A DNA stretch of 64,000 bases, from assembly GCA_018813765.1 (NCBI GenBank), contig JAHJBC010000002.1, positions 1-64,000 of the forward strand, in the 5' to 3' direction. This stretch comes from Gammaproteobacteria bacterium (GTDB taxonomy: Bacteria > Pseudomonadota > Gammaproteobacteria > Burkholderiales > Gallionellaceae). The notes beneath the pieces are model-generated. The model did not search any database, was not told where the DNA came from, and was given only the letters and a program-made list of their open reading frames with translations. Position numbers and translations under genes: made by a program. Shown here one piece after another: positions 4,631 through 38,804 of the stretch (its first letter is position 1; each line of letters opens with the position of its first letter).

Positions 4631-6693
4631 TTTCTCTTATTTCGCAGCCGATGTAACGGGGACAATGCCTGAAGCAGATCCTGCGGTAGCGGCGGCATGG
4701 TGCCGCACATTTCGGCGGCGATGATCTCGGCCGACAGTCCTGCCGTGAGCAGCCCGCGAGTACCGTGCGCCAGACTGCAATACAGGCCCGACTCGACCTC
4801 CCCCACCAGCGGCGTCGCGCCTGGCACGGAGCAGCGCACACCCGCACGCCCGGCCAGCGCACTCCCTCCCCCTTCCCTCACCCCACCCCTCTCCCAGAGG
4901 GAGAGGGAGTTATCACGGTCTGGGGTGGGGGTAGAATTGTTGGACTCCTGCGACTCTACCCCCATCCTAACCTTCCCCCTGCAAGGGGGAAGGGACTGAT
5001 TCAATGCTTGATTCAACGCCGGCATGTGCGCTGCGATCTTGGCGAGGTTGTCGGCATGATCGGCTTCGCGCAGGTCTGTTGCCGCATCATCGAACGTTGA
5101 AGTAGCGCCTGCCACATGCTGCCCCGCCACGGCGGGTGCGCAATAGCCTTCGGCGCACAGCACGGCGTGCAGGGATTCGCTTGCCGGCGTCGAGGGCAGG
5201 ATACTGATCTGGCCGCGCACCGGTTGCAGCGGGAAGGCGGCAAACTGACTGAGGTTCTTGGCTTGATGGCTGCTGCACACCACGACCTGCTCCGCTTCGA
5301 TGGCAAATCCTTCGCCGCTGGCACGCCAGCCGGAAGCGGTGCGTTCCAGAGCCGTCACTTCGCTACCAAGCCGCTGCACAATCAGCGGATGATCCGCCAG
5401 CCGCGCACAGACCTGCGGCGGCACCACCCAACCGCCGCCGGGGAACCACAGCCCGCCGTGCGTCATTTCCATTCCAACCAGTTCCGAAGCCGTTGCCGCA
5501 TCCACCACTTGCAGCAGATGCGCTGGCCATTCCTGTACGGAGAGTTTGGCAATGCGTTTGGCTTCGGCGTCCGTGGCGGCGAGTTGCAGCAGGCCGCATT
5601 CGGAACGCAGCACCCCGTCGACCGGCACCGCCTCGTCCAGCAGCGCCAACGCATGGCCGTAAGCCGCCAGCACAAAGCGATGCAACGCATTCATGCCCGC
5701 GCCGAAGCGCGCATGCAGGATGCCGCGCGGATTGCCGGAGCCTTGGGTGGCAAGTTGCGGGGCGCATTCGATCAGGGTGACGGCGATGCCGCGTTGAGCG
5801 AGGGCGTGAGCGGCGGCGCAGCCAGCGATGCCGCCGCCGATGACGATGGCAGTGCGGGGTGGTTTGCCTTTGTAGGAGCCAGCCCTTCGACTATGCTCAG
5901 GACAGGCTTGCTGGCGAAGGGCATTCGCGGCTGTGTCAATTCCACACCCAACTTGTTGGGTAGTGGATTGCCTGACTTTGTTGGAAGCCGCTCCTACAGG
6001 GAACGCTGGATTGATTTGACCGCGCACCATCTCTCTTTTACTTCCGAAACCTTCTACCCGTTCCACCTCAAACCCCGCCTGCTGCAAGCCGCGCCGCACC
6101 CAGCCCGCGCAGCTATAGGTCGAAAGCGTCGCACCTGCTCGCGAAGCGCGTGCGATACCGGACAGGACTGCATCGCTCCACATCTCGGGATTCTTCGCGG
6201 GCGAAAAACCGTCAAGAAACCATGCATCCACACAGGCTGGCGACAACTGCGGCAATGCCTCGGTGACATCTTCCAAAGCCAGCGTGAGCCGCACGCGCCC
6301 GTTGGCAAAGCTCCAGCGGTTCCATCCCGGCACACGGCGATGCCAGCGCGCCAGCAGCACTTCGGCTTGTGCGGACAGTTCCGGCCACAGCGCCAGTGCG
6401 GCATGCAGCTCATCGTCACTCAACGGGAATTTTTCGACGCTGAAGAAATCCAGGCTCGCACCCGGCGGCGCGACTTGCTCGAACAATTGCCAGCTAGAGA
6501 GAAAATTAAGCCCGGTACCAAAGCCCAACTCGCCGACACAGAAGCTTTCGCCCTCTCCCAACGCCGCGAAACGTTCCTTCAGTCGATTGCCTTGCAGAAA
6601 CACATGGCGCGTCTCTTCCAGACCGGAATCGGCGGAGAAGTACACGTCGCCAAAGCGATCGGAATATGGTTGTCCTTCTTTCCAGGCCAGCAT
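4627..6693 (-). CDS. mnmC: tRNA 5-methylaminomethyl-2-thiouridine biosynthesis bifunctional protein MnmC
   Basis: The 688-residue product fuses the two MnmC activities. The N-terminal methyltransferase domain shows FGDVYFS, LEETRHVFL and GELGFGTGLNFL; the C-terminal FAD-dependent oxidase begins with the dinucleotide-binding motif IVIGGGIAGCAAA. Together they finish the wobble uridine modification mnm5s2U in tRNA. Two palindromic repeat elements are inserted without breaking the frame: one in the interdomain linker (DNA 5871-5998) and one in the C-terminal half (DNA about 4862-4997). They explain a length above the E. coli protein. The ATG at 6693 has GAG 5 nt upstream, and no ATG, GTG or TTG lies further upstream before the in-frame stop. 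Confidence 0.93.
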   Translation of the reverse strand: MLAWKEGQPYSDRFGDVYFSADSGLEETRHVFLQGNRLKERFAALGEGESFCVGELGFGTGLNFLSSWQLFEQVAPPGASLDFFSVEKFPLSDDELHAALALWPELSAQAEVLLARWHRRVPGWNRWSFANGRVRLTLALEDVTEALPQLSPACVDAWFLDGFSPAKNPEMWSDAVLSGIARASRAGATLSTYSCAGWVRRGLQQAGFEVERVEGFGSKREMVRGQINPAFPVGAASNKVRQSTTQQVGCGIDTAANALRQQACPEHSRRAGSYKGKPPRTAIVIGGGIAGCAAAHALAQRGIAVTLIECAPQLATQGSGNPRGILHARFGAGMNALHRFVLAAYGHALALLDEAVPVDGVLRSECGLLQLAATDAEAKRIAKLSVQEWPAHLLQVVDAATASELVGMEMTHGGLWFPGGGWVVPPQVCARLADHPLIVQRLGSEVTALERTASGWRASGEGFAIEAEQVVVCSSHQAKNLSQFAAFPLQPVRGQISILPSTPASESLHAVLCAEGYCAPAVAGQHVAGATSTFDDAATDLREADHADNLAKIAAHMPALNQALNQSLPPCRGKVRMGVESQESNNSTPTPDRDNSLSLWERGGVREGGGSALAGRAGVRCSVPGATPLVGEVESGLYCSLAHGTRGLLTAGLSAEIIAAEMCGTMPPLPQDLLQALSPLHRLRNKRK
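4862..4997. repeat. GC-rich palindromic repeat inside mnmC
   Basis: About 136 bases with three nested palindromes: CTCTCCCAGAGGGAGAG, a separated CTACCCCCA/TGGGGGTAG pair, and CCTTCCCCCTGCAAGGGGGAAGG-type arms. Read in the mnmC frame it adds roughly 45 low-complexity residues (including SLWERGGVREG) that do not belong to the oxidase family. Similar 'CTCACCCC...CTCTCCC' elements are usually intergenic in betaproteobacteria. Exact ends are approximate. Confidence 0.7.
5871..5998. repeat. 128-bp element with TGTAGGAGC ends inside mnmC
   Basis: The segment is bounded by 9-base inverted ends, TGTAGGAGC and GCTCCTACA. It contains the widespread repeat core GCTCAGGACAGGC, which is read in the mnmC frame as ACPEHSRRA. 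It inserts about 44 residues between the methyltransferase and oxidase domains of MnmC without a stop or frameshift. The linker position probably makes it tolerable. Confidence 0.75.
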
Positions 6694-6915
6694 GTTTTCT
6701 CGGGATTCTGGCAGATGAAAAGACCAGTACCCCAGTCAATTACTAATGAATGACGCAATTATATCCCCACCTGTAGAGGAGTCTGAGTCAGGGTATATGC
6801 CCATATCTATATATTTCGGGCTATACGGCTAGTCCGTTTGGCATATTGACCCCATGCTGCAAGTGAGGATACTTCGGAGCCATGCATCATGTACTACAGC
6901 GGAACGGAGAAGAAA

Positions 6916-7296
6916 ATGGAAGATGCCTCAAACTCGAAGTGTTACTCGACCAACTGGGGTATCAGTTTCCTGTGCGACTGCAAGAAGCAGACTAAAGAAC
7001 TCAGGATACACAAAGGGATCGCGCGCTCGATATCAGCGCGAGGAGTACAGATCCTGAGCGACCACCAGATCTGTCAGCAGAAAAAGGTCGCGATGCAACT
7101 GACTATCCCGTCGCTGACAAACGGCACCCCGCAGAAGATCATCCGCATCATCGGTCACAGCATCGTCACCATCATGAAGGAAGGCAAATTCATGACCGAG
7201 ATCGAGTTCCAGCAATTCGAAGAAGACGGCAAAAAGGAGCTGGAGCGGAATTTGCACCAGCGCTTCGAACAGCAATTCTTTGCCGATGCCGCATAA
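6916..7296 (+). CDS. PilZ-like domain protein, degenerate motif
   Basis: The 126-residue protein is not confidently assigned. Residues from about 40 onward (ARSISARGVQIL, then two strand-like blocks ending in FMTEIEFQQF) resemble a PilZ fold. The usual RxxxR and D/NxSxxG ligand residues are not intact, so c-di-GMP binding is doubtful. The C-terminus is a charged helix. The ATG at 6916 is chosen for GGAGA 5 nt upstream; an ATG nine codons earlier lacks a good ribosome site. It is followed after 27 nt by a small membrane-protein gene and is probably cotranscribed with it. Confidence 0.5.
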   Translation: MEDASNSKCYSTNWGISFLCDCKKQTKELRIHKGIARSISARGVQILSDHQICQQKKVAMQLTIPSLTNGTPQKIIRIIGHSIVTIMKEGKFMTEIEFQQFEEDGKKELERNLHQRFEQQFFADAA

Positions 7297-7323
7297 CTGC
7301 CCAACAGACCAGAAAGGAATAAC

Positions 7324-7509
7324 ATGAGCATCGTAATCTTAGTCGCCCTGTTCAGTTCTGGATTGCTCTTCCTGTACGCGATCGGTGTCTTCGCCATGTG
7401 CCTGAATGCCGGTGAAAGCCTGATCACTGCAATAACGGAAGCATCAAGCTGGCTGGCTGCATTTTCCGTGTCGCACATATTTGCCTATCTTGCACTGCCG
7501 TTGCACTAA
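7324..7509 (+). CDS. Small two-helix membrane protein
   Basis: The product is only 61 residues, with two hydrophobic segments (about 2-24 and 38-58) and few charges. AGGA lies about 6 nt before the start, and a strong terminator follows the stop. These signs, and its place directly behind the PilZ-like gene, support it as a real small gene. No family is recognised. Confidence 0.55.
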   Translation: MSIVILVALFSSGLLFLYAIGVFAMCLNAGESLITAITEASSWLAAFSVSHIFAYLALPLH

Positions 7510-7530
7510 GCCCTTACCCCGCCCAAAAGA

Positions 7531-7562
7531 CAACGCCCTGATGGACTCAGGGCGTTGTTCAT
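7531..7562. terminator. Rho-independent terminator
   Basis: A ten-base perfect stem AACGCCCTGA / TCAGGGCGTT with a short loop is followed by T-rich sequence. It sits between the convergent small membrane-protein and EamA genes and can serve the rightward transcript. Confidence 0.75.
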
Positions 7563-7568
7563 TTCAGC

Positions 7569-8450
7569 CTACCTCGCCATCGCTTTCATCCACTGTTCGC
7601 CCCAGCGGTGCAGGCCCAGGCCGAGCACGATGCTCGCCGTCCCCAGCCACACCTGCGGCAACACGGCTTCATTGTTCAGCCCGTGCCCCAGCAACAAGGC
7701 CAGCACCGGCGTGATCAGCGTGATGAGGGCGACCCGCCCCGTGTCCATGTGCTTGATCAGGTAGTAATACAAGGCGAAACCCAGCACCGAACCGAAGGTA
7801 CCCAGATACAGCGTCGCGGCGGCGGAACGCTCGGAAACATCCTCCGGCACATGCCCGTCCGCCATCCACCATGCAGCGAAGAACAAGGGCAGCGAAACGA
7901 TCAGGATGCCCATCGTCGTCGCCAGCGGCGGGCTGTCGTCGCCGATGCGCTTGAGCCACACCAGCCCCAGCGATTGCGACACTACCGCCATGAACAGCGC
8001 GAACAGGCCCAGCGCAGAACCTTCAGGCAAACCCAGCCCGCCGCGGAACACCAGCATCAAGCCGAGCACGCCGAGCGCCATCCCGGCCAGTTTGTTCGGG
8101 GTGAGCGCTTCTTCCTTCAGCCAAAACGCCGCCCCCAGGCTGGTGATCAGCGGCGACAGCCCGAACAGCACCGCGATCATGCCCGAGCTGACGAACTGCG
8201 ACGACCAGTAGGTGAGCACCATCGCGGCGAACATGCTCAGCCCGCCCGCCAGATAGGCATGCAAGGCCCTGCGGTGCAGCGGGAACGGAATGCGGAAGAT
8301 CGCCAGCAATACCGCACACACCAGCATACCGACGGCCATACGCGAGAACACCGCGAAGCTGAAACCGATGCCCAGCGCGCTCCATTTGATGGCGAGCGGC
8401 GTGGTGGACCAGATCAGGATGACCGAAACGAATGCTGCTGGAAGCGACAT
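7569..8450 (-). CDS. EamA/DMT-family permease
   Basis: The 293-residue protein has about ten hydrophobic segments in two repeated halves, the pattern of the EamA drug/metabolite transporter superfamily. Typical phrases are IWSTTPLAIKWS at the N-terminus and the second-half RVALITLITPVLALLLG. The substrate cannot be read from sequence. The start at 8450 is set by GGAG 6 nt upstream; 48 in-frame residues before it look non-coding. A leftward terminator (8511-8542) separates it from the DAHP synthase gene upstream. Confidence 0.85.
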   Translation of the reverse strand: MSLPAAFVSVILIWSTTPLAIKWSALGIGFSFAVFSRMAVGMLVCAVLLAIFRIPFPLHRRALHAYLAGGLSMFAAMVLTYWSSQFVSSGMIAVLFGLSPLITSLGAAFWLKEEALTPNKLAGMALGVLGLMLVFRGGLGLPEGSALGLFALFMAVVSQSLGLVWLKRIGDDSPPLATTMGILIVSLPLFFAAWWMADGHVPEDVSERSAAATLYLGTFGSVLGFALYYYLIKHMDTGRVALITLITPVLALLLGHGLNNEAVLPQVWLGTASIVLGLGLHRWGEQWMKAMAR

Positions 8451-8510
8451 GATTTTCTCCTTGGCTCGACCCACATGCCGTTCACATGAGCCCTTGTGCG
8501 AACGGTGAAA

Positions 8511-8729: not shown

Positions 8730-9800
8730 TTATTGCGCATCCGCCAGCTTGAGTCGGCGATTCCGCACACCTTCGGCCAGCATGTCGAGCGAGCGCACGG
8801 TGTCTTCCCAGCCGATGCAGGCATCGGTAATCGACACGCCCTTCTCCAGCGGCTTGCCGGTGACCAGATCCTGCCGACCTTCCTTGAGGTGCGACTCGAT
8901 CATGACCCCGAAGATGCGCTCTTCGCCGTTCGCCAACTGGGTGGCGCAGTCCTGTGCCACTTCCATCTGGCGCTTGTATTCCTTGCGGCTGTTGGCGTGC
9001 GAGAAGTCGATCATCACCCGCGCGGCAAGACCGGCGTTTGCCAGCTCCTTGCAGATTGCATCGACAGAGGCCGCGTCGTAGTTGGGCTGCTTGCCGCCGC
9101 GCAGGATGACATGGCAATCCTCGTTGCCGTTGGTGGAGACGATGGCCGAGTGTCCCGCCTTGGTGACGGACAGGAAATGGTGCGGGCTGGCGGCCGCCTT
9201 GATCGCGTCCACCGCGATGCGGATGTTGCCGTCGGTGCCATTCTTGAAACCGATGGGGCAGGAGATGCCCGAAGCCAGTTCGCGGTGAACCTGCGACTCG
9301 GTGGTGCGCGCGCCGATGGCGCCCCACGAGATCAGGTCGGCGGTGTATTGCGGTGTGATCACATCCAGGAACTCGGTCGCGCAGGGCAAGCCGGATTCGT
9401 TGATCTCCCACAGCAGCTTGCGCGCCAGGCGCAGGCCTTCGTTGATCTTGAAGCTGCCGTCGAGATGCGGGTCGTTGATCATCCCCTTCCAGCCGACGGT
9501 GGTGCGCGGCTTCTCGAAATACACGCGCATCAGGATCAGCAGGTCGTTACCCAGTCGTACGGCTTCCGACTTGAGTTTGCGCGAATACTCCATCGCCAGA
9601 TCGAAATCGTGGATCGAGCACGGGCCGACCACCACGACCAACCTGTCGTCGGCGCCATGCAGGATGCGGTGGATCGCGCTGCGTGCGTTATAGGTGGTTT
9701 CGGCCGCCTGCTCGGTGACCGGGAACTCGCGCAACAGATGGCTGGGAGGGGTGAGTTCCTTGATTTCCTTGATACGAACGTCGTCGACGATGTGCTTCAT
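8730..9800 (-). CDS. aroG: 3-deoxy-7-phosphoheptulonate synthase, class I
   Basis: This 356-residue enzyme condenses phosphoenolpyruvate and erythrose 4-phosphate, the first step of the shikimate pathway. It matches the type I AroF/G/H family: VGPCSIHD with the metal cysteine, MRVYFEKPRTT, GARTTESQ, and the C-terminal DFSHANS and ACIGWEDT segments. Length is normal (about 350). The ATG at 9800 is chosen over an upstream in-frame TTG. Which aromatic amino acid inhibits it cannot be judged safely, so aroG rather than aroF or aroH is only a conventional label. Confidence 0.93.
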   Translation of the reverse strand: MKHIVDDVRIKEIKELTPPSHLLREFPVTEQAAETTYNARSAIHRILHGADDRLVVVVGPCSIHDFDLAMEYSRKLKSEAVRLGNDLLILMRVYFEKPRTTVGWKGMINDPHLDGSFKINEGLRLARKLLWEINESGLPCATEFLDVITPQYTADLISWGAIGARTTESQVHRELASGISCPIGFKNGTDGNIRIAVDAIKAAASPHHFLSVTKAGHSAIVSTNGNEDCHVILRGGKQPNYDAASVDAICKELANAGLAARVMIDFSHANSRKEYKRQMEVAQDCATQLANGEERIFGVMIESHLKEGRQDLVTGKPLEKGVSITDACIGWEDTVRSLDMLAEGVRNRRLKLADAQ

Positions 9801-9905
9801 GATCAATACTCTGCTAGTTGAATTGGGAGGGCAAAAAAAACAAGGTCGCCATTATGGCTGCTCCGGCGCGAAAATGGGCATCAAGGATAAAAAATACCTT
9901 TCCTT

Positions 9906-11687
9906 TTACCTTGAGCAGGCATCGACATTGATCTGTAGCCACCACTCCAGCAACGCCAGATGCCACAGCTTGCTGCCTTGGATGCGCGTCAGATGCGCCT
10001 CCGGATCGGCCAGCAGTTTCTCCACATACTCGCGCCGGTACAGGCCGCGCTTGCGGCAAGCATCCGAATTGAGCAGCTCGCGCATCTTCTCCAGGAATTC
10101 GCCGCGCACATATTTCAACGCGGGCACCGGAAAATATCCCTTGGGCCGGTCGATCACCGCATCGGGAATAATGCCGCGCGCCACCGCCTTGAGCGGGAAC
10201 TTGCCGCCTTCCTTGAGCTTGAGCGAGGGCGGCATGCGTGCCGCGAGTTCCACCAGTTCGTGGTCGAGGAAAGGCACGCGCGCCTCCAGCCCCCAGGCCA
10301 TGGTCATGTTATCCACGCGTTTCACCGGATCGTCCACCATCAGCGCAGTCACGTCGAGGCGAAACACCTCGTCGAGGAACTCTCCCGCTTGCGGCTGTGT
10401 GAGTTCGCCATTTACCCACTCCGAAGTCACGTCGGGCACGGCATAGGCATCCGTCATCATCGCCAGGTATTCGGCGTGGTCGCGGTCAAAGTAGTGCTGC
10501 GAGAAGCGCGCCAGTGGCGAGCCATTGGCCGCGTCCATGCGCGGATACCAGAAATAGCCGCCGAACACCTCGTCCGCGCCCTGCCCGGCCAGCACCACCT
10601 TCACCTCGTCAGCCACCTTCTCGCTCAACAGATAAAAAGCAGTCACGTCGTAGCTCGGCATCGGCTCGCTCATCTGTGCGATGGCTGCCGGGAGCGTCTC
10701 CAGCACCGCGCTGTTGGGCAAGGCGAACTTGTGGTGACGGGTATTAAAGTGTTTTGCGACTAGGTCGGAATACTCGAACTCGTGCCCCGGCTCGCCCGCC
10801 ACCTCCTCGAAACCGATGGAGAAGGTGTTGAGGTTCTCCACATGGTCGGCCAGCAATCCGACCAGCAGACTCGAATCCAGCCCGCCAGAGAGCAATATGC
10901 CCACCGGCACATCGGAGGCGAGGCGATGCCGCTCCACCGCGCGCGTCAACACGGCGCGCGTCGCAGCCAGCCACTCCTGTTCAGACAGTTCATGTTGAGG
11001 GCGCGTCGCATCCAGCAACCAGTAGCGTTGCAATTTCACCTCGCCAGCAGCGGCAAAGGTCATGGTGTGGGCAGGTGGCAACTTCTTCACTCCGCGCAGG
11101 AGGGTGCGCGGTGCGGGCACGACGCTGTGCAGGGTGAAGTGGTGATGCAGGGCGACCGGATCGATGCTGCTATCCACCCCACCTGCCGCGAGCAAGGCTT
11201 GCAGCGTGGAGGCGAAACGCAGACGTACGCCGTCCAACGCGTAATACAGCGGCTTGATGCCGAGGCGGTCGCGCGCGAGGAACAGCGACTTGTCGCGCAT
11301 GTCCCACACGGCGAAGGCGAACATGCCGAAGAAGCGCTGCACGCACTTTTCTCCCCAAGCGTGGTAAGCCTTGAGAATGACCTCGCTATCACCCTCGGAG
11401 AAGAAGTCGTAGCCCATCTCCAGCAGTTCGGCGCGCAGCTCCTTGTAGTTGTAGATGGTGCCGTTGAACACCAGCGCCAGTTTGAGCTCGTCGTCCACCA
11501 TGGGCTGGTCGGAATGCGCGGAGAGGTCGATGATGGACAAGCGCCGATGGCCGAACGCGAGCACGCCGCCGTCAAAGAATCCCTCGTGGTCCGGCCCGCG
11601 CCGCGCCAGTTTCGCCGTCATGCGTTTCAATGCCTCCATATCGGGCACAGACTTGTCGAAACGCAACTCACCACAGATACCGCACAT
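9906..11687 (-). CDS. asnO: Asparagine-synthase-like amidotransferase, probably N-acetylglutaminylglutamine amidotransferase
   Basis: The 593-residue protein has an N-terminal class II glutaminase domain and a C-terminal asparagine-synthase domain with the ATP-pyrophosphatase loop LLSGGLDSSL. Catalytic Cys must be residue 2 after the start methionine, which fixes the start at the ATG-TGC at 11687; GGAG lies 6 nt upstream. Phrases such as GDSEVILKAYHAWGE, TLLRGVKKLPPA and the YFPVPALKYV region resemble the N-acetylglutaminylglutamine amidotransferase subgroup, which makes the osmolyte NAGGN amide. The usual partner, a GNAT/ATP-grasp synthetase, is not adjacent, so this subgroup call is moderate and plain AsnB remains possible. 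Confidence 0.75.
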   Translation of the reverse strand: MCGICGELRFDKSVPDMEALKRMTAKLARRGPDHEGFFDGGVLAFGHRRLSIIDLSAHSDQPMVDDELKLALVFNGTIYNYKELRAELLEMGYDFFSEGDSEVILKAYHAWGEKCVQRFFGMFAFAVWDMRDKSLFLARDRLGIKPLYYALDGVRLRFASTLQALLAAGGVDSSIDPVALHHHFTLHSVVPAPRTLLRGVKKLPPAHTMTFAAAGEVKLQRYWLLDATRPQHELSEQEWLAATRAVLTRAVERHRLASDVPVGILLSGGLDSSLLVGLLADHVENLNTFSIGFEEVAGEPGHEFEYSDLVAKHFNTRHHKFALPNSAVLETLPAAIAQMSEPMPSYDVTAFYLLSEKVADEVKVVLAGQGADEVFGGYFWYPRMDAANGSPLARFSQHYFDRDHAEYLAMMTDAYAVPDVTSEWVNGELTQPQAGEFLDEVFRLDVTALMVDDPVKRVDNMTMAWGLEARVPFLDHELVELAARMPPSLKLKEGGKFPLKAVARGIIPDAVIDRPKGYFPVPALKYVRGEFLEKMRELLNSDACRKRGLYRREYVEKLLADPEAHLTRIQGSKLWHLALLEWWLQINVDACSR

Positions 11688-22637: not shown

Positions 22638-23657
22638 ATGGACATCGAATTCCATTACTGGATCACCGGACTGGTCGCCTTCCGCGCCGGCTTCAGCCGC
22701 AGCGAGGCGCTGACCATCGCCTACGCCTCGCAGTACGTCGACGAGAACGACATCAACTACGAGATCCTCAGCCGTAGCGGCGGCAAGCCGTATCACAATT
22801 TCATGAGCCAGACGATGAACATCCTCAAGCCCAAGGACACCTTGATGAGGATCTACCCCATCTTCCACTTCATCCCCGGCGACCCCCTGGCCATCACCGC
22901 GCGCCGCCGCGACGGCGGGCTGCACCTGCTCAACACCACGCCCGACAACGAGAACGCCAACGCCATGCTCGATGCCGCCTTCAAGGCGCATGAAGACACG
23001 CGGCTCTACCGCATCGGCGTCGCCACGCACAGCTACGTGGACACCTGGGCGCACCAGAACTTCGTCGGCTGGTACAACTATCACAACCAGATCGAACTCA
23101 AGCCCGCGCCCGCCATCGGCCACGCTACTGCCGGACACCCGCCCGACTGGGTCAGCCATCTGTGGACTGACGAGCGTCTGGTGGACGGCGAGGTCAGCAA
23201 TCGCGACCGCTTCATCGACGCCGCCGAAGCGCTCTACAAGAAATACTGCGCCTACCAGAAAAGCCAGGGCAACCCGGACCTCAGCGACCAATGGCCCGAC
23301 CTGGAAGACGACCTCATCGCCATCTGCGGCCAGACCTATACCGGCGACTACCTGCAACACCAGGACGTACGCATCAAGAACTACAAGAAACGCCTGAGCT
23401 GGTTCCCCGACTTCGACGAGGAAGAATGGTTCGATGGCGCCATCGCCACCGAGGTGCGCGGACTCAAGGACAACAAAAATGGCATCCTGCACGGGCTCAC
23501 GATATTCAAGGACCGCCACTACTGGAAAGAAGGTATCCCGCGCGAAGAGACGCACTGGTACCGCTTCCAGCAGGCCGTAAAGGAACACGAAAGGTTCGGC
23601 ATCAAGCAACTCTCGCCCGTCTTCCAGACCATGGGCTACGACCTCGCTGCCGTATGA
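22638..23657 (+). CDS. DUF6765-type protein, phospholipase C/P1 nuclease-like
   Basis: The 339-residue protein begins MDIEFHYWITGLVAFRAGFS and contains AYASQYVDEND and HSYVDTWAHQNFVGW. The latter looks like a zinc-binding histidine/aspartate helix as in the zinc-dependent phospholipase C / S1-P1 nuclease fold. I recognise it as DUF6765-like from memory of the N-terminal pattern; the function is not established. No signal peptide is visible, so it may be cytoplasmic. AAGGGG precedes the start. Its stop overlaps the pldA start (ATGA), strong evidence for joint expression with an outer-membrane lipase. Confidence 0.65.
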   Translation: MDIEFHYWITGLVAFRAGFSRSEALTIAYASQYVDENDINYEILSRSGGKPYHNFMSQTMNILKPKDTLMRIYPIFHFIPGDPLAITARRRDGGLHLLNTTPDNENANAMLDAAFKAHEDTRLYRIGVATHSYVDTWAHQNFVGWYNYHNQIELKPAPAIGHATAGHPPDWVSHLWTDERLVDGEVSNRDRFIDAAEALYKKYCAYQKSQGNPDLSDQWPDLEDDLIAICGQTYTGDYLQHQDVRIKNYKKRLSWFPDFDEEEWFDGAIATEVRGLKDNKNGILHGLTIFKDRHYWKEGIPREETHWYRFQQAVKEHERFGIKQLSPVFQTMGYDLAAV

Positions 23658-24526
23658 TGACGAAGCGTGCCCTCCTCGCGCTGCTGCTCGCGCTGCCCGC
23701 CCTCGCGGCCGCAGCAGCAGAGGCGCAGCGGCCAACATCGCTGGCCGAACAATGGACACCGTCGGAACAGGCCCTGCGCATGTACAAGCAGAACTACTTC
23801 CTGTTCTTCGCACACTCATCCAACCCCAACGACACCCCCACCAGCCCCAACCCCGCGAACCAGGTACCACCCTCGTACCAGCTCGACCAAAACGAGATGA
23901 AGTTCCAGATCAGCCTTAAAGCGCACATGATGGGTGAAGGCCGCAGCACGCTCTGGTTCGGCTACACGCAACTCTCGTTCTGGCAGTTCTACGATTTCGA
24001 GCGCTCGCAACCCTTCCGCGAGAACGACTTCGAACCCGAACTCATCCTCTCGCACCGCCCGGAAGGCAAAGAGCTCGGCGGCTTCGATGCCTCCTTCCTC
24101 AACCTCGCCATCGTCCACCACTCCAACGGACAGGTGCTGCCGCGCTCGCGCGCGTGGAACCGCGTCTATCTGCAAGCCGGACTGGAACGCGACTTCGGCG
24201 AGGGCCGTAAACTCGCCCTGCTGCCGCGCGTGTGGAAGCGGCTGGGTGCGGGCGGCGCCGAAGACGACAACCCCGACATCGCGGAATACCTCGGCCACGG
24301 CGACCTCGAACTGCGCTACCAGCACAACGGCCTGGCCACCCTCACCGCGCTACTGCGCATCCGCTCGGTGCAGCTCGACCTCGCCCTCTCGTCCGAACTG
24401 GTCACGCCGCTGTTGCACAACACCAGCCTGCACCTGCAATACTTCGACGGCTACGGCGAAAGCCTCATCGACTACAACCAGCGCCACCGCACACTGGGCA
24501 TCGGCATCTCGATGCCGTTCGAATAA
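23654..24526 (+). CDS. pldA: Outer-membrane phospholipase A1
   Basis: The 290-residue precursor has a signal peptide (residues 1-24) and the OMPLA barrel. The active-site segment is HHSNG: H155 and S157 align with His142 and Ser144 of E. coli PldA, and N169 in RAWNRVY aligns with Asn156 at the same 12-residue spacing. The enzyme hydrolyses phospholipids that reach the outer leaflet of the outer membrane, usually as a calcium-dependent dimer. Its start overlaps the DUF6765 stop by 4 nt. Two adjacent ATGs (23654 and 23657) are possible; the first is used here. Confidence 0.9.
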   Translation: MMTKRALLALLLALPALAAAAAEAQRPTSLAEQWTPSEQALRMYKQNYFLFFAHSSNPNDTPTSPNPANQVPPSYQLDQNEMKFQISLKAHMMGEGRSTLWFGYTQLSFWQFYDFERSQPFRENDFEPELILSHRPEGKELGGFDASFLNLAIVHHSNGQVLPRSRAWNRVYLQAGLERDFGEGRKLALLPRVWKRLGAGGAEDDNPDIAEYLGHGDLELRYQHNGLATLTALLRIRSVQLDLALSSELVTPLLHNTSLHLQYFDGYGESLIDYNQRHRTLGIGISMPFE

Positions 24527-24547: not shown

Positions 24548-24729
24548 ATGGGAATGCAAAAGATCAACTCCGGCAAACTGCGCGCAGCGGGCTACGACCC
24601 CAAGACGCGCATCCTGCAAGTGCGGTTCGACGACGGCAGCGTGCTACAGCACAGCGCCGTCGGCGAAGGGATATGGCGCAGGCGCCGGGAGGGAAGAATC
24701 CGTTGGATGAGTTGTTTGGCGGGAAATAA
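24548..24729 (+). pseudogene. KTSC-domain gene with internal deletion
   Basis: The first 43 codons (MQKINSGKLRAAGYD and onward) match the intact KTSC gene at 30419. After the shared TGGCGCAGGC about 82 bases are missing, which shifts the frame. The conserved tail GKNPLDELF is still present but only in the +1 frame, ending at 24729. The start has a plausible GGGAG upstream and lies 21 nt after pldA. As written, translation would run on into a meaningless tail. It is a decayed paralogue. Confidence 0.8.
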
Positions 24730-24837
24730 ATGCGACGCTGTCCCGTTTGATTCTCGTTTGATTCTCAGCATCACGATATTGTTGTCCGGCAGGTCAAACG
24801 GAAAGCAAAACCGAAGCTGGTACCTCTTGTTTACTCG

Positions 24838-27294
24838 TCAATGAAGCTGGTCTACATCCATCAACCGTTTTTCCACCCTATCGAACGACTCTTTTCCAAT
24901 CAGCAGTTTCTCAGCCCAATTGAAGTAAGGCTTTGGGCTAAAGCCCGTCCATACTGAATTAAGATAATTTAAGAAAGCAACTGCTCGCTCGTAGCGAGCA
25001 GATAGAGTTTGCTCATTGACTCTCTTTAAAAGGGTGACATGCATTACCTCATCGAAGATGGGCGTATCAAAAGACATTGCTTCAACGAAAGCAAACTCAT
25101 AAGACCATTTCTTCAGATGATATGCCCCAAGTGGCGTTATCCTAAAACTATCAGGCATGCCGACCTCGCGTACTTCTTGTTCAGTCTCAAGTAGGCGCCG
25201 CTCTGTCGTTTCTAATAGCTTCTTCCGGGTTAGACGCTTCAAATGGGCGGTTACTTGTTCTTCGGTAAACCCGTTCGTCTGTATTTCTCTCAAAATCAAA
25301 TCAAGGCTGACAAAACCATCTGCCTGATGAATATTCACGTCACCGCAGGCGAGGTATCCAAGAATTAGTAGCGATAAGAAATGCTCACGTTTGTCGGCAT
25401 AGACGATCCCAAATACATTAAATGCAATCGATGCATCTTCTTGGTAATACGCATAGTCACCGAGAAGTCCTCCTTTAGAAAATTCATGGAGGGGTATCCT
25501 GTAATCGCCCGACTCATTGAAAATTTGCACAATGCGTTCGGTGTGGACATTGGGATTGCCGAGAAACTTAGATATGAGCTCAATAGCAACACGTACATTG
25601 CCAGAACTGACATTAACTATGAATTCATAGAGCTCGGGATTGCTCCTTAACGAAGACTGAAGCGCCTTGATCAGAATTGCCAAGCTCTCGACATGCATTG
25701 AAAGACTTCGCACATTCGAAACCGGGAGGCGGCCTTCTGCAATTCTCAAAGCAAACGAGAGGCGTTTTTCAATGACATCTTCAAGTTTAGGAGGCGAGAT
25801 TACAAACACTTTTGGGGGGTATGCTGATACGGCACCGCTACGCTTTGATGTATGGAAAGTTTGTGGCCTCAGGGAAAGAAAGACTAAGGCGTTCCACGTT
25901 GATGCCAGTTCGTGCGCAATTACAAAGGCATCATTTTGAACTGGTACAGAGCGTTGATCAGCATTATCAATCACAATAACGATTTGGCATTTACGAATCT
26001 CTGCAAGCTTAGATAAGCAGTTTCGTAGAAACTCAGCACGATTGCTAATTAGGGATTGGATATGCTCAATCCGCTTTTGCTGAAAGACAGTTGGTTGACT
26101 ATCTCTCAATGGTGCCATAAAGCCATTATCAAATTCCGCCAGTTCAACCTGATAGATATCTTCTAATAGTTTCTTATCCTGCAAATTTACTAAGTACTCC
26201 GATCTAAGAGTTGATTCAATCTGCTGTAATAGTGCATCGCGGGTGTTTTGGGATAGAGCCCCTTTTGATCCGAGATCAAAATACACAAAAATAGAATCAC
26301 CAAATTCTGCTGCTGCATCGATTTGAATTAGATTCTTAATGAAAGAAGTCTTGCCGACGCCAACGTCACCCAAAAACACTATAGGCCGCCTGGCGAGTGC
26401 TTCTGCAAGCACCTTGTCGCTTAACTTTGATTTTTGTTTTCGCGGATTAATTTCTTCAACGCGACTACCTGTTTCGGACTTTGAGAATAAAGCCGCATAC
26501 CTAGTACTCAATATATTTTTTCCAAGCAAGGAATATTGCGTAAGCGGGCCGCTCTCGCAATAACACTCCTTCAGGAACTGCTTTTCAAGGTCAACTGTGC
26601 GGCCAATATCTTCAATAACAAGCGAAGAAGCATTGCGAATATTCTCTTGAAACGCGCTGCTGTACTTGTAGTCGAAGTAGTTCAGACAGGCTGTAGAAAG
26701 TTTTGATGGAAGATTGCCACTGGACTTGCCTCCAAGGAGATTGACTAGACGTTTTTCCTGTACGCCATCTTGCGAGAGGCATTCAAATACAGTACTGAAT
26801 CCATGGGTTATGGCTTCATAACTGTCAAACACTAATGCATCACCATCCATCGGAGACACGCCATCAAGTCTCGAAGCAAGAAATACCACCAACTGTGGGC
26901 CATTGCACAGCGCGGCTATTTGGACACCACGGTCTTGGCAATACTTATGAACCTGCTCTATTCCGGCCTTTGTTTCAGCGTTGAAATCCATTAGCGAGCG
27001 AATTTTAATTTTAATGCTCGCCTTCTTACCTCTTGGAGGTATTGCAAATGACTTCGCTGCTTTTTTTGCTTCAACAATTAACTGTCGAGGACAACCACAC
27101 TCGTAGTCGGATCGTTCACCCTGCTCATATACTTCTACCTTAATGCTTTCGCGCGTCCAGCCCAGGCAGTCCGTTAGCAATCGATCAATGAACGAAAACC
27201 GAGTTTGAGCCTCGTTTGATAGCTCGCCAATAGGTGAGAACTCCTGAATAAGTTCACCTAATCTAGCCTGTGCCACGCTGAATTCAATAGTCAT
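24838..27294 (-). CDS. PD-(D/E)XK nuclease-like / P-loop NTPase / winged-helix protein, candidate defence protein
   Basis: The 818-residue protein starts with a domain resembling the N-terminus of type I restriction R subunits: E28 in NEAQTRF, LGW at 44-46, D63 in SDYE, and VEAKK with E75 and K77. This is a plausible PD-(D/E)XK catalytic set. Residues 300-530 form a STAND/AAA-like NTPase with Walker A GDVGVGKTS (309-317), Walker B IVIVIDNAD (438-446) and a sensor-like SLRPQT. Residues about 660-730 look like a winged helix ending ITPLGAYHLKKW. The remainder is helical. The gene is much AT-richer than its neighbours, stands alone, and is flanked by a broken KTSC gene and a dispersed repeat. 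Function is inferred, not known. Confidence 0.7.
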   Translation of the reverse strand: MTIEFSVAQARLGELIQEFSPIGELSNEAQTRFSFIDRLLTDCLGWTRESIKVEVYEQGERSDYECGCPRQLIVEAKKAAKSFAIPPRGKKASIKIKIRSLMDFNAETKAGIEQVHKYCQDRGVQIAALCNGPQLVVFLASRLDGVSPMDGDALVFDSYEAITHGFSTVFECLSQDGVQEKRLVNLLGGKSSGNLPSKLSTACLNYFDYKYSSAFQENIRNASSLVIEDIGRTVDLEKQFLKECYCESGPLTQYSLLGKNILSTRYAALFSKSETGSRVEEINPRKQKSKLSDKVLAEALARRPIVFLGDVGVGKTSFIKNLIQIDAAAEFGDSIFVYFDLGSKGALSQNTRDALLQQIESTLRSEYLVNLQDKKLLEDIYQVELAEFDNGFMAPLRDSQPTVFQQKRIEHIQSLISNRAEFLRNCLSKLAEIRKCQIVIVIDNADQRSVPVQNDAFVIAHELASTWNALVFLSLRPQTFHTSKRSGAVSAYPPKVFVISPPKLEDVIEKRLSFALRIAEGRLPVSNVRSLSMHVESLAILIKALQSSLRSNPELYEFIVNVSSGNVRVAIELISKFLGNPNVHTERIVQIFNESGDYRIPLHEFSKGGLLGDYAYYQEDASIAFNVFGIVYADKREHFLSLLILGYLACGDVNIHQADGFVSLDLILREIQTNGFTEEQVTAHLKRLTRKKLLETTERRLLETEQEVREVGMPDSFRITPLGAYHLKKWSYEFAFVEAMSFDTPIFDEVMHVTLLKRVNEQTLSARYERAVAFLNYLNSVWTGFSPKPYFNWAEKLLIGKESFDRVEKRLMDVDQLH

Positions 27295-27370: not shown

Positions 27371-27411
27371 GTGTTCGGATTTGCAGTTCAAACCGAATCA
27401 CTCAACATCAA
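27371..27411. repeat. Dispersed 40-bp repeat, copy 1
   Basis: The unit contains the small hairpin TTCGG...CCGAA around TTTGCAGTTCAAA, followed by TCACTCAACATCA. It is preceded by ATTAATGGGGTC, a phrase often seen in REP-associated repeats. Related copies lie at 34443-34480 and 38764-38804. It sits just downstream of the M48 protease gene and upstream of the AT-rich defence-like gene. Confidence 0.7.
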
Positions 27412-27420
27412 CCCTCGCGG

Positions 27421-28953
27421 TCACTTCCCCGCATTCCGTTGCGCATCGATGGTGCGCAGTTTATCCAGCCAGTTCTCTGCGGCAGCCTCGTCCTTCTTCT
27501 CCATCAGCCACTGGTAGCCCGCGTGGGCACAATCGTCCGCCATCGAGGGCGCAAGGCGGAACGCTTCTTCCAGATAATCCAGTCCGCGGTCGTTGCCTTC
27601 GTCCAGCAGGGCGCGGCCATAGTAATAGACAGGTTTGGGATAACGTTCGCCGGAACGGCCGAGGATGTTCTCGAGTACGGCTTTGGATGCGGCGACGGAG
27701 CGGAATTCGACCAGTAGCAACGCGAGTTCCTGCGCGTCGGAGACGCTGAGTTCGTCCAGCGGTTTCTTTTCCAGCTCGCCAATGCGTCCCTGTGAATGGT
27801 GGTAGCGGCGGTGGTACTTCTGCCATTTGTCCTTCTCCGCCGCCCACCACTTGCCGTCGAATTCGCGCACGAGCACTGGTGCACTCTTGCCGAGCAGCGC
27901 ATCCGCCGCGCAGACGCCGGGCAATGACGGCAGGGTTGGCCGCACGTCGAGTGCGGTGACGCGTTCGTTCAGGCAGGGATGGGTGTCGTAGACATCCGAT
28001 TCCACTTTCCACGCGGCGGCGAGCTTGTCCTTGGTGGCCCATTCGTCCATGGTCATCGCCAGCAGTTTGCGCATGGCGACGAACGGCATCACCGGCGGGT
28101 TCTCGTGTTGTTTGGCCTGGTCGTACAGCCTGGGCCAGAAACTGACTTGCAGCCAGTCGGCCAGGAGGTCGATGCGGATCAGGGCGGAGGCGGCGGCTTC
28201 TGCGCCGGCCAGTTCGCGCGACATCGCATCGGCTTCGTATTCGTTCTGCCGCGACAGCACGAAGGTGTAGGAGTTGTAATAGGGCGAGAACCAGTCCAGC
28301 ATGCCCGCGATCACGCCGTTGACCCAGTTGTCGTTGCGGCGCGCCTGCGCGTGTTCGTAGAGCACGTCGAAGGTCATGCGCTGGCGGTAGATCCAGCGGC
28401 TCAGTTTGCCGTGCCCGCCGGCCAGATGGCCATATTCGTGCGCGATGATGGCGCGCATCTCGTCGCCGGAGACGGCATACATCAGCGGCAGCCCCAGCAC
28501 CAGGTAGTTACGATAGCCGCCGAACAGGCCGAAACGCGGGCATTGCGCGATGGCGGCGTTGAAGTCATCGGTGATCAGCACATGATGGATGGGCGCAGCC
28601 TGCAGGCGCTGTTGCATGTCGGCCAGAGTAGCAAAGAGTTGCGGCGCTTCTGCCTGCGTAAGCTCCCGCCCCTGCGGCACCGGGATGGCGGCGAAGAACA
28701 TGCGGAACACCAGCCAGACGATGGGCAGCACCACCAGCAGCCAGCTCATCAGCACGATCTTGGTGAACAGGCTGCCGCCCTGAGCGAGGCTGAAGGTGAG
28801 ATAGATGCCTAGCAACAACAGCGCCAGCACGCCGAACAGCATCACATAAGCAAAGATGCTGAGCCCAACGACCTTGATGCGGAATGAACCGGGTACTTCC
28901 TGCGCTTCGCTTTGCAGGCTCCATACCAGCGTCTCGTAATCGCGTTGTTCCAT
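27421..28953 (-). CDS. M48-family membrane metalloprotease with C-terminal repeat region
   Basis: The 510-residue protein has two hydrophobic segments near residues 25-55 and 65-95, then the zinc site H172-EYGH-176 and a downstream EYEADAMSRE segment providing the third ligand, as in M48 (HtpX/Ste24-like) proteases. The C-terminal 200 residues are helical, with a TPR-like pattern (ALLDEGNDRGLDYLEEAFRLAPS). It is probably a membrane protease acting on envelope proteins. AGGG lies 5 nt before the ATG at 28953. It is divergent from the TPR protein gene. Confidence 0.85.
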   Translation of the reverse strand: MEQRDYETLVWSLQSEAQEVPGSFRIKVVGLSIFAYVMLFGVLALLLLGIYLTFSLAQGGSLFTKIVLMSWLLVVLPIVWLVFRMFFAAIPVPQGRELTQAEAPQLFATLADMQQRLQAAPIHHVLITDDFNAAIAQCPRFGLFGGYRNYLVLGLPLMYAVSGDEMRAIIAHEYGHLAGGHGKLSRWIYRQRMTFDVLYEHAQARRNDNWVNGVIAGMLDWFSPYYNSYTFVLSRQNEYEADAMSRELAGAEAAASALIRIDLLADWLQVSFWPRLYDQAKQHENPPVMPFVAMRKLLAMTMDEWATKDKLAAAWKVESDVYDTHPCLNERVTALDVRPTLPSLPGVCAADALLGKSAPVLVREFDGKWWAAEKDKWQKYHRRYHHSQGRIGELEKKPLDELSVSDAQELALLLVEFRSVAASKAVLENILGRSGERYPKPVYYYGRALLDEGNDRGLDYLEEAFRLAPSMADDCAHAGYQWLMEKKDEAAAENWLDKLRTIDAQRNAGK

Positions 28954-29273: not shown

Positions 29274-30419
29274 GTGACCAAGATGGCAGAGTATCTGTTT
29301 ACCGCACGCACGCCGGGCGGAAGGGAGATAAAAAGCAAGATCGATGCACAGAGTGCGGCAGCAGCGCGCGAGCAGTTGCAGGCACAGGGACTGCGCGACA
29401 TCATCGTGCACACCGACGATTTCGCGGCACGGATGTACGGCAGCCAACTCGTCAATTACACGGAAGAGCCCGACCCGGCCATGCTGATCGAGGCACAGAA
29501 GCAAAGCGGCATGATGAGCCTGTTGCTGGGCATGCTGAAAGGCAGCGCGATGTTCCTCGTCCCGCTGTTGGCCTGGAACGCCTATTCCCTCTATAGCGGC
29601 TCCCACGGAACAATCGACTGGATTGGTTTTGCCCTCACTGCAGGTCTGTTGGCGACCATGGTCTGGTTCGCCATTCCGGCCGTGCTGTTCGAATCGCTGC
29701 TGCGGGCACAACTGGCGGCACGCTGGCAGGATGCGGAAAGGAATGTCGCATTGCTGCGCCGCTTCAAACAGGGCGCGAACATCATGCCGCATATGCTCGA
29801 ATACTACCAGGCCAAGAACCTGATCGGCATGGGGCGCGTGGATGATGCCATGGCTCTGTTCGGGCAGCACCGCGGCAAGGCGGAGGTGCCCGACATGCTC
29901 TGGCTGAGCCTGCAAGCCTCGCTGCTCGACCAGGCCAGGCACCGCGACGAAGCGGGCGAACTGATGCGGCAATTGACCGAAATGATGCCGGACAGCGCGC
30001 AGGTATGGCTGGACCTGGCGCTCAACCAGGCGCTGTACGGCGACCTCGCAAGCGCCAAACATGCGGTAGGCGAGGCCGAGCAACGAGAGCTCAACCCGAT
30101 CATGGCGGGCATCGTCCCGTTCGTGCACGGCGAAATCGCCCTGCGCGAAGGACGCCACACCGATGCGGCCGGCCTGTACGCACAATCGCTGATCGAGCTG
30201 TCGCCCTACCTCCAGCAGACCGCGCTGCGCGCACTGTTCATCGGCATCGAAGCGCGTTATGCAGTGGCCCTGGCCCGCTGCGGCAAACTCGAGACCGCGC
30301 GCCAGGCCTGGGCCATCGCAGCACCGGTGCTGGCAGCCCACAACGAGCAAAAATACCTCGACGACTGGCTCGCCGCAGAAGCGGAAGCCGTCGCTGCCGG
30401 TGCAATGGAGAAACCGTGA
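29274..30419 (+). CDS. Membrane TPR protein with GspF/PilC-like N-terminus
   Basis: The 381-residue protein has three parts. Residues 5-50 (YLFTARTPGGREIKSKI... and EQLQAQGLRDI) read like the short N-terminal motif of type II secretion F proteins. Two transmembrane segments follow (about 85-145). Residues 165-370 are helical repeats of TPR type. No catalytic motif is visible. The start may be the GTG at 29274, with AGGA only 3 nt upstream, or the ATG at 29283. The stop overlaps the KTSC gene start as TGATG, so the two are coupled. Confidence 0.6.
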   Translation: MTKMAEYLFTARTPGGREIKSKIDAQSAAAAREQLQAQGLRDIIVHTDDFAARMYGSQLVNYTEEPDPAMLIEAQKQSGMMSLLLGMLKGSAMFLVPLLAWNAYSLYSGSHGTIDWIGFALTAGLLATMVWFAIPAVLFESLLRAQLAARWQDAERNVALLRRFKQGANIMPHMLEYYQAKNLIGMGRVDDAMALFGQHRGKAEVPDMLWLSLQASLLDQARHRDEAGELMRQLTEMMPDSAQVWLDLALNQALYGDLASAKHAVGEAEQRELNPIMAGIVPFVHGEIALREGRHTDAAGLYAQSLIELSPYLQQTALRALFIGIEARYAVALARCGKLETARQAWAIAAPVLAAHNEQKYLDDWLAAEAEAVAAGAMEKP

Positions 30420-30676
30420 TGGAAATGAAAAAGATCAACTCCGGCAAACTGCGCGCCATCGGCTACGACGCGCGCGCACGTCTGCTGCAAGTGCAACTCG
30501 ACAACGGCGACACGCTGCAATACAGCGGCGTGGGTGAAGACCTGTGGCGCAGGCTCAGCAGCTCGGGGGCGGCGTGGAGTTTTTATCGCGACAACATCGA
30601 GGAGGAGTTTACGGCGAAGAAGGTTTCAGGCAGTGCGCCGGCGGGGAAGAATCCGCTGGATGAGTTGTTCAAGTAG
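30419..30676 (+). CDS. KTSC-domain protein, intact copy
   Basis: The 85-residue protein consists of a KTSC-type domain (KKINSGKLRAIGYD, LLQVQLDNGDTLQYSGV, AAWSFYRDNIEEEF) and a conserved tail GKNPLDELF. The KTSC domain is short and of unknown biochemical role; it is also found at the C-terminus of some lysyl-tRNA synthetases. This is the only complete member of three in the window (others at 24548 and 33921). Its ATG overlaps the stop of the TPR gene. Confidence 0.8.
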   Translation: MEMKKINSGKLRAIGYDARARLLQVQLDNGDTLQYSGVGEDLWRRLSSSGAAWSFYRDNIEEEFTAKKVSGSAPAGKNPLDELFK

Positions 30677-33920: not shown

Positions 33921-34076
33921 GTGGACCTTCATTCAGCAACATACACTCAGATACAATCGGCCAGTTCGGCTTGGAGTTATTATCGGGACAACACCGAAGA
34001 AGAAATGACGGCAACCAAGGTGTCGTCAAAACCGGCTGGCGGGAAGAATCCGCTGGATGAGTTGTTCAGAAAGTGA
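33921..34076 (+). pseudogene. KTSC gene remnant, 3' part only
   Basis: From 33960 the frame reads SSAWSYYRDNTEEEM and ends GGKNPLDELFRK, clearly homologous to the second half of the intact KTSC protein. The part before it does not match the KTSC N-terminus. A GTG at 33921 opens the same frame, so a 51-residue peptide is conceivable, but the most likely reading is a 5'-truncated gene. It sits directly after the glycosidase-like gene. Confidence 0.75.
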
Positions 34077-34403: not shown

Positions 34404-34442
34404 ATGGAAATCCAACAGTATTAGCGAAGAATCAAAGGTGGC

Positions 34443-34480
34443 GTGTTCGGGTTTCCAGTACAAACCATACCACTCAACAT
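34443..34480. repeat. Dispersed 40-bp repeat, copy 2
   Basis: A diverged copy of the unit at 27371, keeping GTGTTCGG, CCAGTACAAACC and CACTCAACAT but with mismatches in the right half of the hairpin. It lies between the DUF3566-like and rhodanese genes. Confidence 0.6.
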
Positions 34481-38763: not shown

Positions 38764-38804
38764 GGTCGGGTTTGCAGTTCAAACCGAATCACTCAACATC
38801 ACCC
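38764..38804. repeat. Dispersed 40-bp repeat, copy 3
   Basis: GGTCGGGTTTGCAGTTC, AAACCGAATC and ACTCAACATCACCC match copy 1 at 27371 almost exactly, apart from a missing 6-base piece near the left end. It sits behind the UspA gene. Confidence 0.7.

Follow-up and report, generated by a model that had tools for sequence, protein, structure and literature searches.

A predicted nuclease fused to an AAA+ ATPase, encoded by a solitary gene on mobile elements: a candidate single-gene conflict system

Introduction

What does a lone, AT-rich gene for a nuclease fused to an ATPase do for the DNA that carries it? The question is raised by an 818-residue protein encoded at positions 24838 to 27294 of the window analysed here, a stretch of 64,000 nucleotides from contig JAHJBC010000002.1 (assembly GCA_018813765.1, a gammaproteobacterium of the Gallionellaceae). 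A first-pass annotation, made from the letters alone, had read the protein as a nuclease, an NTPase and a winged helix in one chain, and had proposed a single-gene phage defence system of the STAND, Avs-like type. We interpret the gene as encoding a conflict nuclease that works as a single-gene system, travels on mobile elements and is most likely directed against phages or plasmids, and put the probability of this interpretation at roughly 55%. It is based on the invariant residues of the protein, a nuclease fold whose structural matches are led by HsdR, the lack of a partner gene, the mobile carriers, and the low guanine-plus-cytosine (GC) content of the gene.

A predicted HsdR-type nuclease domain

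The open reading frame (ORF) is intact on the minus strand, which the first-pass annotation had not specified; its ATG ends at 27294 and its stop codon lies at 24838, and the plus strand contains many stops in the same frame. All the residue numbers given earlier for the nuclease and Walker motifs proved correct.

We aligned 64 full-length members out of 80 available rows (alignment A3), omitting L002, L003, L023, L038, L044, L052, L056, L064, L074, L077, L078, L085-L088 and L095 as broken, partial, near-copies or sequences whose start codon was not found, and a more diverse set of 43 rows with identities down to 16% (alignment A6). On the nuclease side E28, R32, D63, E75, A76, K77, Q114 and Y118 are invariant in 64/64 rows of A3, and E28, D63, E75 and K77 remain so in A6. 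In the AlphaFold2 model (predicted local distance difference test score 86 for the whole protein) the nuclease core is confidently predicted, and its top structural matches are HsdR and type IIG enzymes; the best match in a viral structure library, at E 1.1e-3, is a phage protein whose N-terminal domain is of the type I R kind. Pfam models HSDR_N and HSDR_N_2 match 6 and 8 of 43 family members, respectively (E ≤ 0.01), and one or the other exceeds the cut-off in four of six very distant relatives, while neither is among the Pfam matches of the window protein. The N-terminal part is thus a predicted HsdR/BpuSI-type (type I/IIG-like) PD-(D/E)XK nuclease with all of its catalytic residues present. 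Fold and invariant residues bear out the type I restriction R-like N-terminus that had been proposed, and the alternative raised with it, a predicted fold without a nuclease core, did not materialise.

A solitary gene on mobile elements

Pattern scans of contigs, which were not exhaustive, yielded at least 70 loci in genome contigs and at least 6 in viral contigs. Most hosts belong to Pseudomonadota or Actinomycetota; Bdellovibrionota, Nitrospinota, Verrucomicrobiota and Spirochaetota each contribute one or two loci. The closest of the loci found are a viral contig (L091, 70%), Xanthomonas pisi (55%) and Ramlibacter albus (55%). Within the order, 7 of 399 genomes are positive at E ≤ 0.001: the source genome, which holds a single copy, three at 43-45% and three distant ones at 24-28%. 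Within the phylum the figure is 4 of 398 at E ≤ 1e-10, again counting the source genome. Plasmid records contain 27 matches in 72,556 (tblastn), 15 of them with at least 80% query coverage; three have 35-45% identity and the remainder 20-33%. A member of the family occurs in a Zymomonas mobilis strain (L039); the restriction barriers of strain ZM4 of this species have been the subject of a study (PMC8432527).

Broken copies occur. Matches are split across several ORFs in L044, L052, L077 and L087, one phylum match has an internal stop, and an E. coli copy carries IS1 inside. In an Alcanivorax hongdengensis assembly the two ends of one family gene lie on separate contigs (L064 and L086), so this copy is interrupted, either by a contig break or by an insertion.

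To describe the surroundings, ORFs lying no more than 3.5 kb from 75 loci were clustered (76 loci less L072, which has no flanking ORF, with L056 and L095 representing one neighbourhood). Five of the clusters recur in at least four loci: one of serine recombinases is found in 9, two of integrases in 8 and 5, and two apparently unrelated ones in 5 and 4, with all labels assigned by eye. A recombinase or integrase cluster member lies within 3.5 kb in 18/75 loci, and among 137 near neighbours Pfam identified Phage_integrase eight times and Resolvase three times. No partner gene is conserved across the 75 loci, and no fixed housekeeping context was seen there, which agrees with the description of the gene as standing alone and supports a single-gene design. 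In L091 an integrase immediately precedes the gene, and genes for a replicative helicase and a terminase lie further along the contig; in L092, whose surroundings look P4-like, it begins 27 bases after an integrase (by ORF call) and a primase lies downstream. All six viral loci have at least one phage-type gene among ten chosen proteins. A Klebsiella relative (L012) adjoins phage terminase and capsid genes. On a Shewanella plasmid the neighbours are a methyltransferase and a restriction endonuclease, and on a Paracoccus plasmid (L010) a neighbouring 1201-residue protein matches Tmn at 7.6e-78 (PADLOC). This Tmn-like gene (4882-8487) lies just upstream of the family member (8995-11412) on the same strand.

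The window gene has 44% GC against 59.7% in 10 kb of flank, as the first-pass annotation had noted in calling it AT-rich; the lowest value among gene-sized segments outside the gene, sampled every 500 bases, is 54%. The same holds for the family: GC is below that of the flanks in 69 of 71 loci and at least 5 points lower in 63, after exclusion from the 76 loci of fragmented matches and those with less than 3 kb of flank. Together with the mobile carriers this supports a horizontal origin, and the context as a whole supports the proposed conflict role. The family is mobile and probably defensive; no full-length model for it was found in Pfam, NCBIfam or PADLOC, and NCBIfam gave nothing above cut-off for the window protein. 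A literature search limited to titles, the starts of abstracts and passages, without supplementary tables, did not find the nuclease-ATPase-winged-helix architecture (the parts covered include those of PMC9122126, PMC13092281, PMC12839542, PMC10853773 and PMC7159879); a relative may already have been tested within supplementary tables.

The ATPase domain and its affiliation

The ATPase side is conserved to a similar depth. G309, G312, G314, K315, D443, N444, D446, R511 and R568 are invariant in A6, and all of these but R568 also in A3. The arginine of G-N-x-R568 is present in 63/64 rows of A3, as is R476-P477 after strand 4; we take the former to be ORC/Cdc6-like, with the sensor-2 arginine pattern G-D/N-x-R, and the latter to be STAND-like. 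Residue 495 is basic in 61/64 rows (K in 35, R in 26); it is not basic in L012, L014 and L017, among others.

Structural comparison places ORC/Cdc6 and TnsC on top; Avs3 and CED-4 score at most 2 Z units lower, and Foldseek ranks ORC/Cdc6 structures first to eighth and a plant NLR ninth among nine matches with E ≤ 0.001. Structure 1fnn_A aligns over residues 218-749 with a root-mean-square deviation of 8.2. In Pfam, AAA_22 is barely above cut-off in the window protein (E 3.3e-6) and the remaining matches, mostly to P-loop families, all fall under theirs; NACHT gives no match. Among the 43 members (E ≤ 0.01, best 25 of 32 families) AAA_22 matches 36, AAA_16 30, NACHT 24, ATPase_2 19, KAP 14, nSTAND5 5 and ORC-CDC6-like 1. 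A sequence search of the PDB returned three weak matches and no homologue, and a search with the A3 profile found no homologue among the best 60 of 195 matches, which were mostly P-loop stretches. The Cdc6_C profile has matches in 3/14 control genomes and yields no sequence for comparison. STAND and ORC/Cdc6 proteins are handled as a single assemblage in passages of PMC10853773 and PMC12839542, and the safe statement is that the ATPase is an AAA+ domain of the ORC/Cdc6-TnsC-STAND assemblage whose branch is not fixed. The earlier assignment to Avs-type STAND NTPases is accordingly left unsettled: the best structural matches are ORC/Cdc6 and TnsC, and in its favour stand the close scores of Avs3 and CED-4 and the NACHT matches in 24 of 43 members.

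The C-terminal half and what it may sense

Past residue 635 the model shows a single winged-helix-like unit and four helices, read by eye. The succession of helices and strands between about residues 635 and 731 fits the winged-helix-like block described earlier, and some ORC/Cdc6 structural alignments pass through it, with high root-mean-square deviation; no search names a winged helix there, and the assignment comes from that succession. The proposed domain order of nuclease, NTPase and winged helix is supported by the model. A C-terminal repeat sensor is usual, not universal, in STAND NTPases. As the annotation had remarked for TPR-type repeats, no repeat sensor (TPR, LRR or WD40) is seen in the model, and the chain continues for about 85 residues past the winged-helix-like unit.

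Six very distant relatives were scanned as well. At their C-terminal ends L016 and L019 match a cold-shock domain and L020, L005 and L006 (the last below cut-off) match S1, so that five of the six scanned carry one or the other; L096 carries neither. These ends lean towards nucleic-acid sensing in the wider family, and we consider that the family protein probably senses nucleic acid.

Proposed mechanism and alternatives

In the interpretation of the gene as a conflict nuclease, the C-terminal half would engage invader nucleic acid, or a DNA state arising from invader replication; ATP binding would drive assembly of a ring or filament, and this assembly would bring nuclease domains together and lead to DNA cutting. 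The carrier or its host would thereby be protected from competing elements, with a target that may be invader DNA alone (restriction) or host DNA as well (abortive infection). A more specific form of this mechanism is offered tentatively, and could well be wrong: a replication-initiator-like AAA+ ring or filament, resembling ORC/Cdc6 or TnsC, might load on invading nucleic acid through the C-terminal half, recognise the state of that nucleic acid, as opposed to a protein or a base mark, and fire the fused HsdR-type nucleases by ATP-driven assembly.

Several observations weigh against our interpretation. The phage records searched contain no match among 50,697 (tblastn, likewise with L012 as query), and phage genes at the six viral loci are expected from a viral contig collection. 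A quick tree has 14 class changes (minimum 7), against 32.2 in shuffles, none of which was as low in 200; parts of the tree mix Alpha-, Beta- and Gammaproteobacteria, and the 16 actinomycete rows form one group with support 93. As the class labels are strongly clustered overall, transfer has not been rampant, and more than one class change is no proof of transfer. PADLOC matches occur in both the near (137 of 391 eligible proteins) and far (140 of 270) neighbour sets, in output that counts families rather than proteins (best 25 of 117 near, 25 of 98 far) and gives no rate or enrichment; no defence-island gradient is shown between the two sets. Pfam found no defence family in seven window neighbours. 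The ATPase folds are nearly tied, with a plant NLR among the nine Foldseek matches, and Pfam matches neither a cold-shock nor an S1 domain in the window protein itself.

One alternative is a short STAND-type sensor: the C-terminal half would bind a phage protein, the protein would oligomerise and an indiscriminate nuclease would be unleashed, in an abortive infection resembling that of Avs. The nearness of Avs3 and CED-4 in structure and the NACHT matches of relatives speak for such a sensor. The model, however, lacks a repeat array and leaves few residues past the winged-helix-like unit, and G-N-x-R568 occupies what we take to be the place of the STAND GxP motif. We regard this alternative as unlikely, though it deserves to be taken seriously.

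We think it improbable that the protein is an ATP-driven, modification-dependent (type IV) restriction enzyme that cuts DNA with foreign base marks. The distant relative L012 is annotated as 'Predicted type IV restriction endonuclease', the HSDR_N and HSDR_N_2 matches would fit, and no recurrent methyltransferase cluster adjoins the gene in the 75 loci; the L012 annotation, however, is automatic, and no modified-base reader appears in the Pfam matches of the window protein or in the best 25 of 32 families of the 43 members.

A part in the replication or transposition of a mobile element, as a TnsC-like ATPase with a fused nuclease and no defence role, is very improbable: family genes do lie beside recombinases and transposases, but these vary between carriers, and hhalign against a single TniB sequence (L010) gave just a weak P-loop match (E 0.017, probability 2.7%). 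An hhalign comparison with a single neighbour of L057 gave nothing informative. For a housekeeping or regulatory role of the ATPase nothing speaks but a generic P-loop, and such a role is scarcely credible given the patchy distribution in order and phylum and the existence of broken copies.

The locus in the window and related loci in E. coli

The features of the locus are collected in Table 1. The broken flanking gene of the first-pass annotation is a KTSC gene cut short; a paralogue in 30005-30673 covers PF13619 1-58 and is complete. KTSC genes or pieces thus recur, since a 26-base match to the tail of the gene also lies at 34041-34066. The dispersed repeat mentioned there is present, but its dispersal is weak, with a single further genome copy at E ≤ 0.001 and an additional 85% copy at 34442-34480. 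Homologues of the M48 gene with 71-79% identity are found in 3 of 20 other genomes of the genus. On the other side, 22638-24523 holds a DUF6765 gene and then a phospholipase A1 gene; in the 20 genus genomes the DUF6765 protein has one 75% relative and one 36% partial match. No empty site was found in the genus, as the loci fetched around the M48 (71-79%) and DUF6765 (75%) relatives share no common junction DNA (blastn). A promoter and terminator scan showed no excess over shuffles.

Table 1. Positions of the gene, its domains and motifs, and its immediate neighbours in the window.
Feature	Coordinates	Strand	Basis or detail
Nuclease-AAA+-winged-helix-like gene, 818 residues	24838..27294	-	ORF call, alignment, AlphaFold2 model; single copy in genome
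N-terminal PD-(D/E)XK nuclease domain, residues 1-187	26734..27294	-	E28 27211-27213, D63 27106-27108, E75-A-K77 27064-27072
AAA+ ATPase core and lid, about residues 290-600	25495..26427	-	AlphaFold2 model
Walker A, residues 309-317	26344..26370	-	G309, G312, G314, K315 in 64/64
Walker B with D-N-x-D, residues 438-446	25957..25983	-	D443, N444, D446 in 64/64
Winged-helix-like unit, residues 635-731	25102..25392	-	Model secondary structure and conserved pattern in relatives, read by eye
C-terminal helices, residues 734-818	24841..25095	-	AlphaFold2 model; repeat array not seen
Truncated KTSC gene, neighbour	24548..24841 (reading frame continues to 24844)	+	PF13619 positions 1-38 of 58
Short repeat, between gene and upstream neighbour	27375..27413		95% copy at 38766-38804
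M48 peptidase gene, upstream neighbour, same strand as the gene	27421..28953	-	PF01435

Two kinds of distant relative are found in E. coli prophages. One, the kind of the Klebsiella locus L012, is full-length in 8 of 5,426 genomes, with any match in 10, and the other, the kind of L017, is present in 7. In the loci viewed (two of each kind, four genomes) both adjoin DUF977: one kind is flanked by DUF1367 and DUF977 in a prophage that also has racR and recE, and the other by DUF977 and hokD in a prophage that has dicB. Two other strains, drawn from a list of 12, carry differing cargo beside DUF977 (L118:2053-4484 and L117:1850-4319). One of these strains has a hypothetical gene, KilA-N and Hok there; another has a methyltransferase followed by two genes matching cll (2.4e-28) and PD-Lambda-2_C (1.8e-41) in PADLOC. 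Because the cargo differs among strains, the DUF977 side is a variable site for cargo, one that takes defence genes in this small sample. It may be a defence hotspot, and is a place to look for defence genes in E. coli prophages.

Comparison with known systems

Should the conflict-nuclease interpretation be right, a compact single-gene family, with no model in the defence library used, would join the nuclease-ATPase defence proteins, and it would provide a test of whether an end made of a winged helix, a cold-shock domain or S1 can let STAND-like immune ATPases sense nucleic acid, in place of the sensing of proteins by repeats. The Avs and related STAND nuclease proteins differ in size, the Avs3 chain having 2028 residues against 818 here, and in the repeat array that our model lacks; no Avs profile of PADLOC matches the window protein at E ≤ 1 or the 43 members at E ≤ 0.01. 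The sole PADLOC match of the window protein is a weak and partial one of its ATPase to mad8 of MADS (E 0.013), which matches 15 of the 43 members at E ≤ 0.01 (best 1.6e-5); the mad8 profile has 314 positions, against the three-part window protein, no MADS operon was noticed among the Pfam-scanned neighbours of the gene, and a literature search found no paper with the word mad8. TnsC and RdrA of RADAR share the ATPase likeness, whereas the window protein has a fused nuclease and no conserved partner gene. HsdR, BpuSI and DrdV have a similar nuclease domain, but no SF2 helicase, methyltransferase or target-recognition domain was found in the window protein. The conflict ATPases of the ORC/Cdc6 clade, the CR effectors and their relatives, likewise combine an ORC/Cdc6-like AAA+ domain with a restriction-type nuclease; in the parts of PMC10853773 that describe them the nuclease tends to be C-terminal, whereas that of the window protein is N-terminal and HsdR-like.
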